From: a virus
Length of the DNA stretch: 64,000 nucleotides
Reading direction: 5' to 3' (one strand)
IMG/VR virus record: IMGVR_UViG_3300035698_017111
Coordinates: 82,773 to 146,772 of that record
Both the position numbers and the translations under genes were made by a program. Below are positions 2,922-5,421 of this stretch, one piece after another (positions within the stretch are counted from its first letter, which is position 1; each line of letters opens with the position of its first letter). The notes under the pieces were generated by a model, which did not search any database, had not been told where the DNA came from, and saw nothing but the letters and a program-made list of their open reading frames with translations.

Positions 2922-2950
2922 TTGACTTGCCGTATAGAAAGTGTTACACT
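2922..2950 (+). promoter_or_regulatory. sigma70-type promoter for the Y-RNA-like cluster
   Basis: TTGACT (2922-2927), 17-base spacer, TACACT (2945-2950). Predicted start near 2957, just before the first structured RNA element. A second TTGACT near 2839, followed by TATATA, may be an additional promoter. Confidence 0.65.
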
Positions 2951-2968
2951 CAATGAAGTAAAAGATTT

Positions 2969-3054
2969 AGCCAGAACTTGAAGCTGTTACAGCTTATGCA
3001 AAAAGCACTGCCCTCAATAAAGGGCGGTACACAACAACTTCTAAGAACCTGGCT
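2969..3054 (+). ncRNA. candidate structured RNA, possible truncated Y-RNA relative
   Basis: Ends pair as AGCCAG (2969-2974) with CTGGCT (3049-3054). An inner GAAG/CTTC pairing follows. Inside are a small TGC-AAAAA-GCA hairpin and a GCCC/GGGC hairpin with an eight-base loop. The layout (outer helix, inner helix, TTACAG joining segment, then D-arm- and anticodon-arm-like hairpins) resembles the two longer elements downstream, but it has no recognisable T-arm. Weaker than the others. The stretch 3055-3123 that follows holds only a short AGTCC/GGACT hairpin. Confidence 0.35.
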
Positions 3055-3123
3055 TTAAAATTTATAGGAAGGGGCAGGAGATAGGGATGACAGGTAAAGG
3101 ATAGAGTCCTCGGACTAAATTTT

Positions 3124-3243
3124 GACTGGAACGGATAGTCATTACAGTGATAGCTCATTTTGGTAGAGCATCGGCCTTCAACGCCGGTTGTTATAGGTTC
3201 AATTCCTATTCACCCAAACAAACTGACTCTCAATAATCCAGTC
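3124..3243 (+). ncRNA. Y-RNA-like RNA with tRNA-like domain (element 1)
   Basis: The terminal helix GACTGGA (3124-3130)/TCCAGTC (3237-3243) is perfect. A second helix AGTCA (3137-3141)/TGACT (3224-3228) is nested inside it. Within lies a tRNA-like module (3147-3216): D-arm GCTC/GAGC with a GGTA loop, an anticodon-like arm TCGGC/GCCGG with loop CTTCAAC, and a T-arm ATAGG-TTCAATT-CCTAT. The acceptor-like helix is only GTGA/TCAC, so it is not a normal tRNA. A Ro60 homologue follows at 3751, and bacterial Y RNAs of the YrlA type carry exactly such tRNA-mimic modules beside rsr genes. The conserved ACGG in the 5' internal loop is a candidate Ro-binding feature (inference). Confidence 0.7.
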
Positions 3244-3284
3244 TATTAATTTTAAATAAAATAAAGAAAGAGAGAAACAAGCAA

Positions 3285-3488
3285 ATGGCAGACAAAACAC
3301 CGAGTCAATTAGTTGTGTACGAGGGTGAAGACGAAGTACTTGTTACTACACTTGAAAATGAACACATTCTAATTCAAGAATTTTTCGAAGAAGGTGAAAG
3401 AGACAAAGAAGATTATGGACGAACTGTTACAAATTTCGAATCTGTTGTCCATATCGAAACTGGTCTGTTGCAAGTTAGCACATGTTAA
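3285..3488 (+). CDS. small acidic protein between the two Y-RNA-like RNAs
   Basis: 67 residues, strongly acidic, MADKTPSQLVVYEGEDEV at the start, ending QVSTC. A purine-rich leader (AAAGAAAGAGAG) precedes ATG 3285, and the spacing is long. It sits between the two structured RNAs and before the shared terminator, so it is probably on the same transcript. No family recognised. Confidence 0.6.
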   Translation: MADKTPSQLVVYEGEDEVLVTTLENEHILIQEFFEEGERDKEDYGRTVTNFESVVHIETGLLQVSTC

Positions 3489-3495
3489 AGGTTTT

Positions 3496-3619
3496 GCTAG
3501 GAACGGCACGTTGATACAGACAAAATAGCTCAGCTGGTAGAGCTGTTGGTATTCTAACCAATAGGCGTAGGTTCAATTCCTACTCTTGTCACCTTTACTC
3601 AACTGGTAATCACCCTAGC
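3496..3619 (+). ncRNA. Y-RNA-like RNA with tRNA-like domain (element 2)
   Basis: Same plan as element 1 with different helix sequences. Outer helix GCTAGG (3496-3501)/CCTAGC (3614-3619), extended by GTTTT/AAAAC across a bulge. Inner helix GTTGA (3510-3514)/TCAAC (3599-3603). The tRNA-like module 3519-3591 has a near-complete acceptor GACAAAA/TCTTGTC (one mismatch), D-arm GCTC/GAGC, T-arm GTAGG-TTCAATT-CCTAC and an anticodon-like arm that pairs only with a six- or eight-base loop. The 5' internal loop again begins ACGG, and the joining segment again reads TACA. Compensatory differences in both helices relative to element 1 support a real RNA family. Confidence 0.7.
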
Positions 3620-3630
3620 AATTAAAACAA

Positions 3631-3659
3631 GGCCCCTCAAACGAGGGGTCTTATTTTTT
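3631..3659 (+). terminator. Rho-independent terminator
   Basis: Hairpin CCCCTC-AAAC-GAGGGG with flanking GG/TC pairs, followed by TTATTTTTT. Ends the Y-RNA-like transcript. Confidence 0.85.
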
Positions 3660-3683
3660 CTTTAAGTTTCTCAGCCAAAAGAC

Positions 3684-3712
3684 TTGACATTGACCACACA
3701 ATATGTTTAGAT
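3684..3712 (+). promoter_or_regulatory. sigma70-type promoter for the Ro60 gene
   Basis: TTGACA (3684-3689), 17 bases, TTAGAT (3707-3712). Lies between the terminator and the Ro60-like gene. Confidence 0.6.
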
Positions 3713-3750
3713 GAAATCTGTGGCAAGACATAAAGGAAAGGAATACCACA

Positions 3751-5421
3751 ATGACTACAGCACTAGCACCAAAAACAAGTAAGATGGTTACTGATCTGAC
3801 CGAGAGAGCTTCGATTCAGGTTCCAGAAAGCGTGGACACATGGTTGAAAACCGTGGATGTTGACACTGTCGCATCTATTGTGGATCGTTTCCTCGACGTT
3901 TGTACCACAGTCACTGGACGAGCCACCCACTACAACTCCAAAGCCGATCAAGAAAGACTCATGGCAGGATTGCATACTGAGCTTTTCGACGTTGACCGTG
4001 GTATGTATGGTCTTCTAGTGTGCCTTGAGGGTGCAATGGATATCAGTAGACAAATGGCCATGTCCAGATTGCTTGATAATCCAAGAGAAGGTGAGGCTTT
4101 GCTTACAGTACATCAGGAAAATCAACTCATCAGTCACCTTGCACTGAGCATGCCTCCACAAAGAATGTTGAAACTCTACAAGAAATTCGTAGAGCAAAAG
4201 GTCAACAACTCTCGTGCTCGTAAACTGATCCTTCGAACGATTATTCAGCAACCAGTTGGAAGACTGGAGCATTGGGCGGTCATGTATCGTTCCAAGTTGG
4301 CTTCGGCAATCCGACATGCACTGGGACTCAAGTCCAGTTACGTTCTGGAGAAGACTCTTGAGAGGAAACTCTCCGGTAAGAGAATGTCTACAGACCAGAA
4401 TAAAACTATTCGTAAACTTGTTGGTAAGTTTATGAAAGAGATCTACGATAACAATGATACCAAGAACAAAAAGTTGGAAATCATTGGCTTTATTCTCGGC
4501 ATTGAAACCGGAATGGAATTGAAGAAAACCAAGGCATATGTTGCTGTGAAGGAAGGAAATTTCGCAGCTGGTAAAGTTCTTCCTCTCGAAACAATGGAAG
4601 GTCTCAGAAGCGTTTACCACCCAAAGAAAACGGCCAAAGACATCCTTGAACTAACCAAGGATACTATGACCAAGGGTCAGAAGATGGTTCGACAGAGACA
4701 GGCCAAAGAAGTTGGTGTTAAGATTGACCTAGATCCAAAGCAGTACGATCCTGTCAAACTTTACATCTACTGTTACGAGCAAGGTATCGATGGCCCAATC
4801 ATGAAGGCTCTTGAAGAGAAGGCACAAAGTGCCGTTAAGAACCTCCCCCTTCGTTTTGGGAAGATTGGCATCCTGCTTGACAACTCAGCTTCGATGTTTG
4901 GCCACAAGACACAAGGAAACCGTCCAATGGCAGTTGCCTTGTCGATTCGTGACTATCTGTCGGCAGCAGCCGATGAAGCAAATGTCGAACTCGTCAACAG
5001 ACCTGCGAGATTGACAAAGAAGAGAAAAGCTCTTCCTCTTCCAGAGGGTGACACTTCTCTCGCACAAGCTCTCGTTCAAATGCTTAAAGAAAAGAACGAA
5101 GCTATCTTTGTTATCAGTGATGGTTATGAGAACGCTCCGGCCGGACGTTTTGCCGAAGTTCTCAAGTTGGCCAGACAGGTCGGTGTGAAGACACCAGTGT
5201 ACCAGATCAGTCCTGTTGCAGCAGCAGAAGCATCAGGTATCAAACATCTGGCACCGGGGCTCGTTGAAGCTCTTCCAGTCTCGAACGCAAATAGCCTTGG
5301 AACAACATTGTTCAAGGCACTGTTGGTGGCACGTCCCAAAGAAGGACTTCGTGTTCTTATTGGAATGGGCATGAAACAGCTTGATAACATTAAGAAGATC
5401 GATTACGAAGGGAGAAAGTAA
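3751..5421 (+). CDS. rsr: Ro60/Rsr-like TROVE + vWA protein
   Basis: 556 residues. The N-terminal two thirds are helical, HEAT-like (TROVE-type ring) with many basic residues, for example VNNSRARKLILRTII. From about residue 365 a von Willebrand A domain follows with the MIDAS motif LLDNSASMFG, a later GDTSLAQAL and the strand FVISDGYEN. Ro60 proteins thread misfolded RNA ends through the ring and bind Y RNAs on the outside; bacterial Rsr works with exoribonucleases in rRNA and tRNA quality control. The match is strengthened by the two tRNA-mimic RNAs directly upstream and by an RtcB ligase elsewhere in the window, a trio known from the Salmonella rsr-yrl-rtcBA locus. Ribosome site AAAGGAAAGG upstream of ATG 3751. 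The next gene starts 2 bases after the stop. Confidence 0.85.
   Translation: MTTALAPKTSKMVTDLTERASIQVPESVDTWLKTVDVDTVASIVDRFLDVCTTVTGRATHYNSKADQERLMAGLHTELFDVDRGMYGLLVCLEGAMDISRQMAMSRLLDNPREGEALLTVHQENQLISHLALSMPPQRMLKLYKKFVEQKVNNSRARKLILRTIIQQPVGRLEHWAVMYRSKLASAIRHALGLKSSYVLEKTLERKLSGKRMSTDQNKTIRKLVGKFMKEIYDNNDTKNKKLEIIGFILGIETGMELKKTKAYVAVKEGNFAAGKVLPLETMEGLRSVYHPKKTAKDILELTKDTMTKGQKMVRQRQAKEVGVKIDLDPKQYDPVKLYIYCYEQGIDGPIMKALEEKAQSAVKNLPLRFGKIGILLDNSASMFGHKTQGNRPMAVALSIRDYLSAAADEANVELVNRPARLTKKRKALPLPEGDTSLAQALVQMLKEKNEAIFVISDGYENAPAGRFAEVLKLARQVGVKTPVYQISPVAAAEASGIKHLAPGLVEALPVSNANSLGTTLFKALLVARPKEGLRVLIGMGMKQLDNIKKIDYEGRK

Follow-up and report, generated by a model that had tools for sequence, protein, structure and literature searches.

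The locus and its Ro60-like protein

The window, i.e. the whole stretch of 64,000 nucleotides from IMG/VR record IMGVR_UViG_3300035698_017111 that was analysed, belongs to a phage record of 146,772 bases, where a major head protein and a portal are encoded. Three RNA elements (2969-3621), a terminator, a gene for a Ro60-like protein and a gene for an ARPP-1 protein follow one another along its + strand, with the RNA array 0.1-0.8 kb 5' of the Ro60-like gene (Table 1). From the letters alone two of the elements had been read as tRNA-mimicking phage Y RNAs with a double-helix clamp, which gate or tether a Ro60 homologue encoded at 3751 (the original prediction).

The 556-residue protein is predicted to consist of a helical-repeat (TROVE-like) ring and a vWA-like domain with a DNSAS motif. 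Sequence searches of Pfam, NCBIfam, PHROGs and the PDB did not name it. The Pfam families TROVE and vWA_Ro60 matched neither the window protein nor any of the 19 members of its family alignment, and nothing was above cut-off in 19 related records. Its best viral match was a 'Ro-like RNA binding protein'. The structure was predicted from a 19-member alignment of the protein family and yielded an AlphaFold2 model with a pLDDT (predicted local distance difference test) of 85.1 and a pTM (predicted template modelling score) of 0.81. In Foldseek searches Ro60 chains were the only matches at E≤1e-3 (2i91, 1yvp, 9nep, 9nf8 and 9nen; best E 2.2e-6). The top seven PDB matches were all Ro60 entries, which were matched over the full length with template modelling scores of about 0.5, at an identity of only about 12%. 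The hhalign comparison with 12 TROVE proteins gave an E of 1.1e-9 and a probability of 96.4 over 362 columns, collinear over both domains; ARPP-1 as a control was not significant (E 0.62, probability 0.1). K182 and H189 were invariant in a K-Y-R-x-K...L-x-H stretch that by eye is like the K-Y-R...H of TROVE proteins. Because the hhalign alignment does not pair these residues, the likeness is a lead only. The structure matches to Ro60 alone and the TROVE profile match bear out the predicted Ro60 homologue despite the negative sequence libraries, and judged by model and profile the protein is a Ro60-fold protein of a divergent clade apart from canonical TROVE proteins.

Structure and covariation of the RNA elements

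RNA 1 (W1) and RNA 2 (W2) share a plan of outer helix, ACGG internal loop, inner helix, TACAG joiner and tRNA-like core. In W1 the outer helix is formed by GACTGGA (3124-3130) and TCCAGTC (3237-3243) and the inner helix by AGTCA (3137-3141) and TGACT (3224-3228). In W2 GCTAGG (3496-3501) pairs with CCTAGC (3614-3619), or with flanks TTGCTAGG with CCTAGCAA (3494-3621), and GTTGA (3510-3514) with TCAAC (3599-3603). All helices that the original prediction had quoted are present at these positions. The cores were recognised by the Rfam tRNA model (Table 1) and also reported by ARAGORN, with odd anticodons. Their order of acceptor, D-arm, anticodon arm, T-arm and acceptor is unpermuted, and they are attached to the clamp via the acceptor end. 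W1 has 4 of 7 acceptor pairs and an anticodon loop CTTCAAC, W2 has 6 of 7 pairs and an irregular 6-nt anticodon loop; neither combines the 7-bp acceptor stem, 7-nt anticodon loop and coherent anticodon of a tRNA.

RNA 0 (R0) had been suspected as a third, reduced element. Its outer helix (AGCCAG, 2969-2974, with CTGGCT, 3049-3054) is followed by a loop AACTT, an inner helix and a TTACAG joiner, and the insert is a plain GC hairpin without tRNA arms. It was the third-best match in the window (2967-3055) of the covariance model R1 described below, at an E of only 0.51. Both clamp helices appeared in unconstrained minimum free energy folds of R0, W1 and W2. R0 probably is a genuine third element. 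A strong inverted repeat at 2819-2908 has a clamp-like plan without the ACT/ACG motif and may be a terminator or a degenerate fourth element.

Compared with shuffled flanks, pairing of the flanks was convincing for W1 (z -3.3) and suggestive only for W2 (z -1.8). A flank-swap test used Rfam tRNA hits near homologous genes that were chosen without regard to pairing. Tested singly, neither W1 (rank 0.17) nor W2 (rank 0.06) exceeded 95% of swaps. Thus the window elements were not decisive one by one, and it was their relatives that settled the question of the clamp. For tRNA-like hits at most 2 kb 5' of the homologous gene the own-flank duplex had -20.0 kcal/mol as opposed to -11.0 kcal/mol with swapped flanks, and 21 of 37 hits (57%) beat 95% of swaps, compared to 6% of 63 other tRNAs from the same loci.

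When 38 elements of the window type were aligned, each of the seven inner-helix pairs showed changes of both partners, and every tRNA arm was supported. The covariance model R1 was derived from a second alignment of 32 relatives, from which the window elements were left out. There, 6/6 pairs of the outer and 7/7 of the inner helix were double-changed with pairing kept, 84.5% (outer) and 87.9% (inner) were paired, and the covariation score was 0.717 versus 0.215 with shuffled and at most 0.176 with slid sequences. Most aligned elements had been selected with pairing in view, hence the flank-swap test and the held-out searches provide the independent evidence. R1 found W1 and W2 at full length (Table 1). 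On inspection of R1 matches in loci outside the model (L074, L077, L088, L093-L095 and L031; L-numbers label loci related to that of the window) the clamp was mostly present again, while it was mostly absent from ordinary control tRNAs. Because ordinary tRNAs can reach up to about 74 bits with R1, the two classes cannot be told apart by score alone. A clamp scan without sequence motif was dropped because of its high background (193 hits upstream, 156 shuffled, 189 downstream). Guided by the motif, the scan yielded 90 hits upstream versus 33 in shuffled sequence, 35 on the reverse strand and 28 downstream, so that about one third of its hits are expected by chance. Taken together both clamp helices covary across phages, the original prediction having noted covariation between two elements, and a model built from the relatives recovers W1 and W2.

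Table 1. Features of the locus and of the wider window (R1, covariance model from 32 related elements)
Feature	Positions	Strand	Basis
Sigma-70-like promoter (TTGACT-17-TACACT)	2922-2950	+	Consensus scan 9/12, directly 5' of the array; weak, site count in the region about equal to the shuffled mean
RNA 0 (R0), probable reduced element	2969-3054	+	Motif and clamp scans, minimum free energy fold, R1 hit
RNA 1 (W1), clamped unpermuted tRNA-like core	3124-3243	+	Rfam tRNA model on core 3147-3213, 51.9 bits, E 8e-9; R1 88.7 bits, E 1.3e-16
RNA 2 (W2), clamped unpermuted tRNA-like core	3494-3621	+	Rfam tRNA model on core 3519-3591, 59.7 bits, E 6e-11; R1 78.6 bits, E 1.9e-14
Intrinsic terminator	3629-3660	+	10-bp stem, 4-nt loop, T run; ends the array and precedes the Ro60-like gene
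Divergent Ro60-like protein (predicted fold), 556 residues	3751-5421	+	AlphaFold2 model, structure matches, hhalign
ARPP-1 protein, 353 residues, conserved companion	5424-6485	+	PF20208, E 8.5e-25
RtcB RNA ligase, outside the operon	34322-35479	+	PF01139, E 1.4e-67

Related arrays and companion genes

A single-sequence search of viral contigs returned no relatives of the window protein. Searching with a two-sequence alignment gave 20 viral and 4 bacterial loci, and later searches added further viral loci. LR756500 was the sole carrier of the clade in the annotated phage collection (39% to the window protein), and among 294 Planctomycetota genomes 8 had a clear relative, with two more borderline. 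In two Planctomycete loci (L023 of Thalassoglobus neptunius, 142-5557, and L025, 111-5597) the Ro60-like gene lies beside 24 and 37 ARAGORN-called tRNA genes, respectively. Clamp elements were found near the Ro60-like gene in most related loci, mostly just upstream, with up to about six per locus. Tandem copies, which the original prediction had taken as unusual, are thus the rule in the family. In L077 (8353-8661), L093 (6060-6188), L095 (5877-6166) and also L094 clamp elements lie downstream of the gene.

Many array elements carry the same clamp with hairpins only, without tRNA arms. About a dozen others have a permuted tRNA (13 listed, one of them, L023 3984, poor), with the order clamp, T-arm, 3' strand of the acceptor, a loop that often starts with ACCA, 5' strand of the acceptor, D-arm, anticodon arm and clamp. 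Nearly all permuted acceptors pair at all seven positions with very different sequences, e.g. CTTCCCC/GGGGAAG, CCTGGCC/GGCCAGG and CGTCGCC/GGCGACG. The sequence unpermuted-permuted-unpermuted is common to the arrays of L008, L082, L084 and L085. A long Rfam tRNA hit (L010 4671-4816) was not accepted as a genuine tRNA, as it spans two adjacent permuted elements. Further topologies were seen. L014 4691-4826 and L003 11690-11830 are open tRNAs with an acceptor stem and a capped clamp hairpin between anticodon arm and T-arm, an arrangement related to that of the permuted elements by circular permutation; L017 4732-4865, L018 5392-5522 and L019 253-390 show clamp, D-arm, anticodon arm, T-arm and finally an acceptor hairpin whose loop contains NCCA.

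The Rfam YrlA model (RF02553) matched two permuted elements of L010, at 4180-4307 with 37.3 bits (E 1.2e-4) and at 4767-4881 with 34.3 bits (E 9.5e-4), both below its gathering score of 69. The Ro locus of mycobacteriophage HyRo, a known Y-RNA region, scored 34.3 bits. The L010 matches are significant, though under the curated score, and lie where they would be expected; through such permuted siblings the RNA class of the window is probably tied to bacterial Y RNAs. The part of the original prediction that placed W1 and W2 among phage Y RNAs is supported at the level of the class, yet they are not YrlA members (see below). Its notion that the double-helix clamp is unusual had to be given up, because stem, conserved internal loop, stem and effector module are the ordinary Y-RNA plan.

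When the neighbouring genes of 44 loci were clustered, ARPP-1 accompanied the Ro60-like gene in 40 of them. In the four exceptions the gene caller had picked an overlapping reverse-strand open reading frame, thus an absence of ARPP-1 from these loci is not shown. C105, Q21 and Q82 were invariant in 31 ARPP-1 sequences; for ARPP, which has a conserved cysteine and glutamine, an activity on ribose moieties has been suggested (PMC9503650). The predicted ARPP-1 structure had no fold match in the PDB (best E 0.075). RtcB was encoded in 6 of 14 related records, the window record counted. A PADLOC search found nothing. Protein, RNAs and ARPP-1 are conserved as a set in large phages that are otherwise divergent and in part of the Planctomycetota. 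As dozens of other large phages and some Planctomycetes share the arrangement, it very probably is a real, barely described Ro60/Y-RNA branch.

As to the surroundings in the window, an open reading frame of 67 codons without family match lies between W1 and W2 (3285-3488). Directly 5' of the array there is a nucleoside 2-deoxyribosyltransferase-like gene (2399-2818), which formed no cluster among the related loci. The phage also has a tmRNA gene (41092-41490) with the tag DEAMPIAA.

A probable phage Ro60-type ribonucleoprotein and its known counterparts

The computation yields a Ro60-fold protein, upstream small RNAs with one covarying two-helix handle and variable inserts, and an ARPP-1 partner. 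We consider it quite probable that the locus encodes a phage Ro60-type ribonucleoprotein. By analogy with characterised systems the handle, i.e. outer helix, G-A-C-T/G internal loop, inner helix and TACAG, would dock on the Ro60 ring, and the insert would be an effector module that recruits or deceives partners. The classical Ro-binding motif is GNCGAANG. The tRNA mimic of W1 and W2 may lure tRNA-binding enzymes to the ring or tether them there, PNPase being the partner in characterised bacteria, and the bound RNA may also control entry to the ring. In Deinococcus a Y RNA tethers Rsr to PNPase (PMC7790460), and both this tether and the rsr-yrl-rtcBA operon are documented (PMC7790460, PMC8394870). 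With ARPP-1 beside the gene and RtcB encoded at another place of the genome, it may be guessed that the particle acts in surveillance or repair of tRNA and other RNA when host defences damage RNA. A more far-reaching version, which we put forward tentatively and hold to be possible rather than probable, is a multi-adaptor platform. By a single handle one divergent Ro60 ring would take interchangeable RNA adaptors, about six at most, that are plain hairpins or tRNA mimics of unpermuted or permuted order and, working with the uncharacterised enzyme ARPP-1, would protect or repair tRNAs or mislead tRNA-targeting host defences during infection.

Several points weigh against the ribonucleoprotein. 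Neither W1 nor W2 was matched by the YrlA model, whose best score for them was 15.2 bits (E 4.8) against a gathering score of 69; thus we do not file them as YrlA, but as Y-RNA-like elements of a different topology. The siblings it did match are a few elements only, with scores under the curated threshold. A partner such as PNPase is borrowed from other bacteria.

The missing Pfam matches in all 19 members and the low identity of the fold match would also be compatible with a helical-repeat/vWA protein functionally unrelated to Ro60. On the other hand, only Ro60 structures passed E≤1e-3, and did so over the full length, the profile match to TROVE proteins is collinear and Y-like RNAs are associated in most loci, so we regard an unrelated protein as highly improbable. 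The same applies to cis-acting leaders that control expression of the Ro60-like gene. In most loci the elements directly precede the gene, and a terminator follows them, as would fit leaders, yet there are several tandem copies, each structurally closed and up to 2 kb away, in L077 and L093-L095 elements lie downstream of the gene, and in the window the terminator separates array and gene.

Two other explanations concern the tRNA-like cores. Ordinary or decaying phage tRNA genes with flanks paired by chance would account for the Rfam and ARAGORN reports, for NCCA after the acceptor in 10 of 38 relatives and for the tRNA arrays in several loci. They would not account for the covarying flank pairs, which are particular to elements that precede the Ro60-like gene (57% versus 6% of other tRNAs), for imperfect acceptors (mean 5.4/7, perfect in 2/38), or for incoherent anticodons, the 6-nt anticodon loop of W2 and permuted siblings; we take such genes to be a highly improbable explanation. 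The RNAs could instead mainly be decoys that soak up anticodon nucleases of the host, or other defences that cut tRNA, and are only stabilised by the Ro60-like protein. In line with this, the anticodon arm remains complete and has U33 in 29 of 38 elements, whereas the anticodon is free (27 different triplets in 38), and RNA ligases or RtcB are found in several related records. The same role was proposed, untested there, for the YrlA tRNA domain (PMC7790460). Yet the canonical YrlA model has no anticodon arm, and many elements of the same arrays lack tRNA arms but have the clamp, which a pure decoy does not need. We think decoys as the main role rather unlikely and favor the Ro60-type ribonucleoprotein.

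The function of bacterial Ro60 and Y RNAs is poorly understood, and the loci expose a Ro60 clade overlooked by current annotation. They indicate a fixed partner of the Ro60-like protein, ARPP-1, and that Y-RNA-like elements can carry tRNA mimics of two or more topologies on one handle. As natural adaptor arrays with a common docking stem and differing inserts they make the role of the effector module directly testable by insert swapping.

Phage Ro60 and phage Y RNAs are already known in principle. 'Ro-like RNA binding proteins' occur in mycobacteriophages and Streptomyces phages, and 310 phage records matched a TROVE query. As far as the searched literature shows, what is new is a Ro60 clade that Pfam does not see, an unpermuted tRNA mimic attached by its acceptor, arrays of mixed type and the partnership with ARPP-1. 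With Ro60/Rsr (TROVE plus vWA) the window protein shares the overall fold, as predicted here, and the domain order; unlike them its clade is invisible to Pfam TROVE and vWA_Ro60 and is paired with ARPP-1. With the ARPP systems (Iyer, Burroughs and Aravind 2022, PMC9503650) the locus shares its companion protein, a clear ARPP-1 with invariant cysteine and glutamines. The ARPP neighbours given there are ARG, HIRAN, WYL and a deacetylase, and a text search of that paper found neither TROVE nor Ro60. The rsr-yrlBA-rtcBA RNA-repair operon likewise has a Ro60 homologue with tandem Y RNAs, and RtcB is encoded in the same phage genome; in the window, however, RtcB is about 30 kb away and ARPP-1 lies beside the Ro60 gene instead. 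Like YrlA (e.g. Salmonella YrlA, PDB 6CU1), W1 and W2 have a stem that pairs the ends, an internal loop, a tRNA mimic and an adjacent Ro60 homologue. Yet YrlA is a circularly permuted tRNA (PMC11472068) with the order T-arm, acceptor hairpin and D-arm in the Rfam model, whereas W1 and W2 are unpermuted, joined by the acceptor and retain the anticodon arm.

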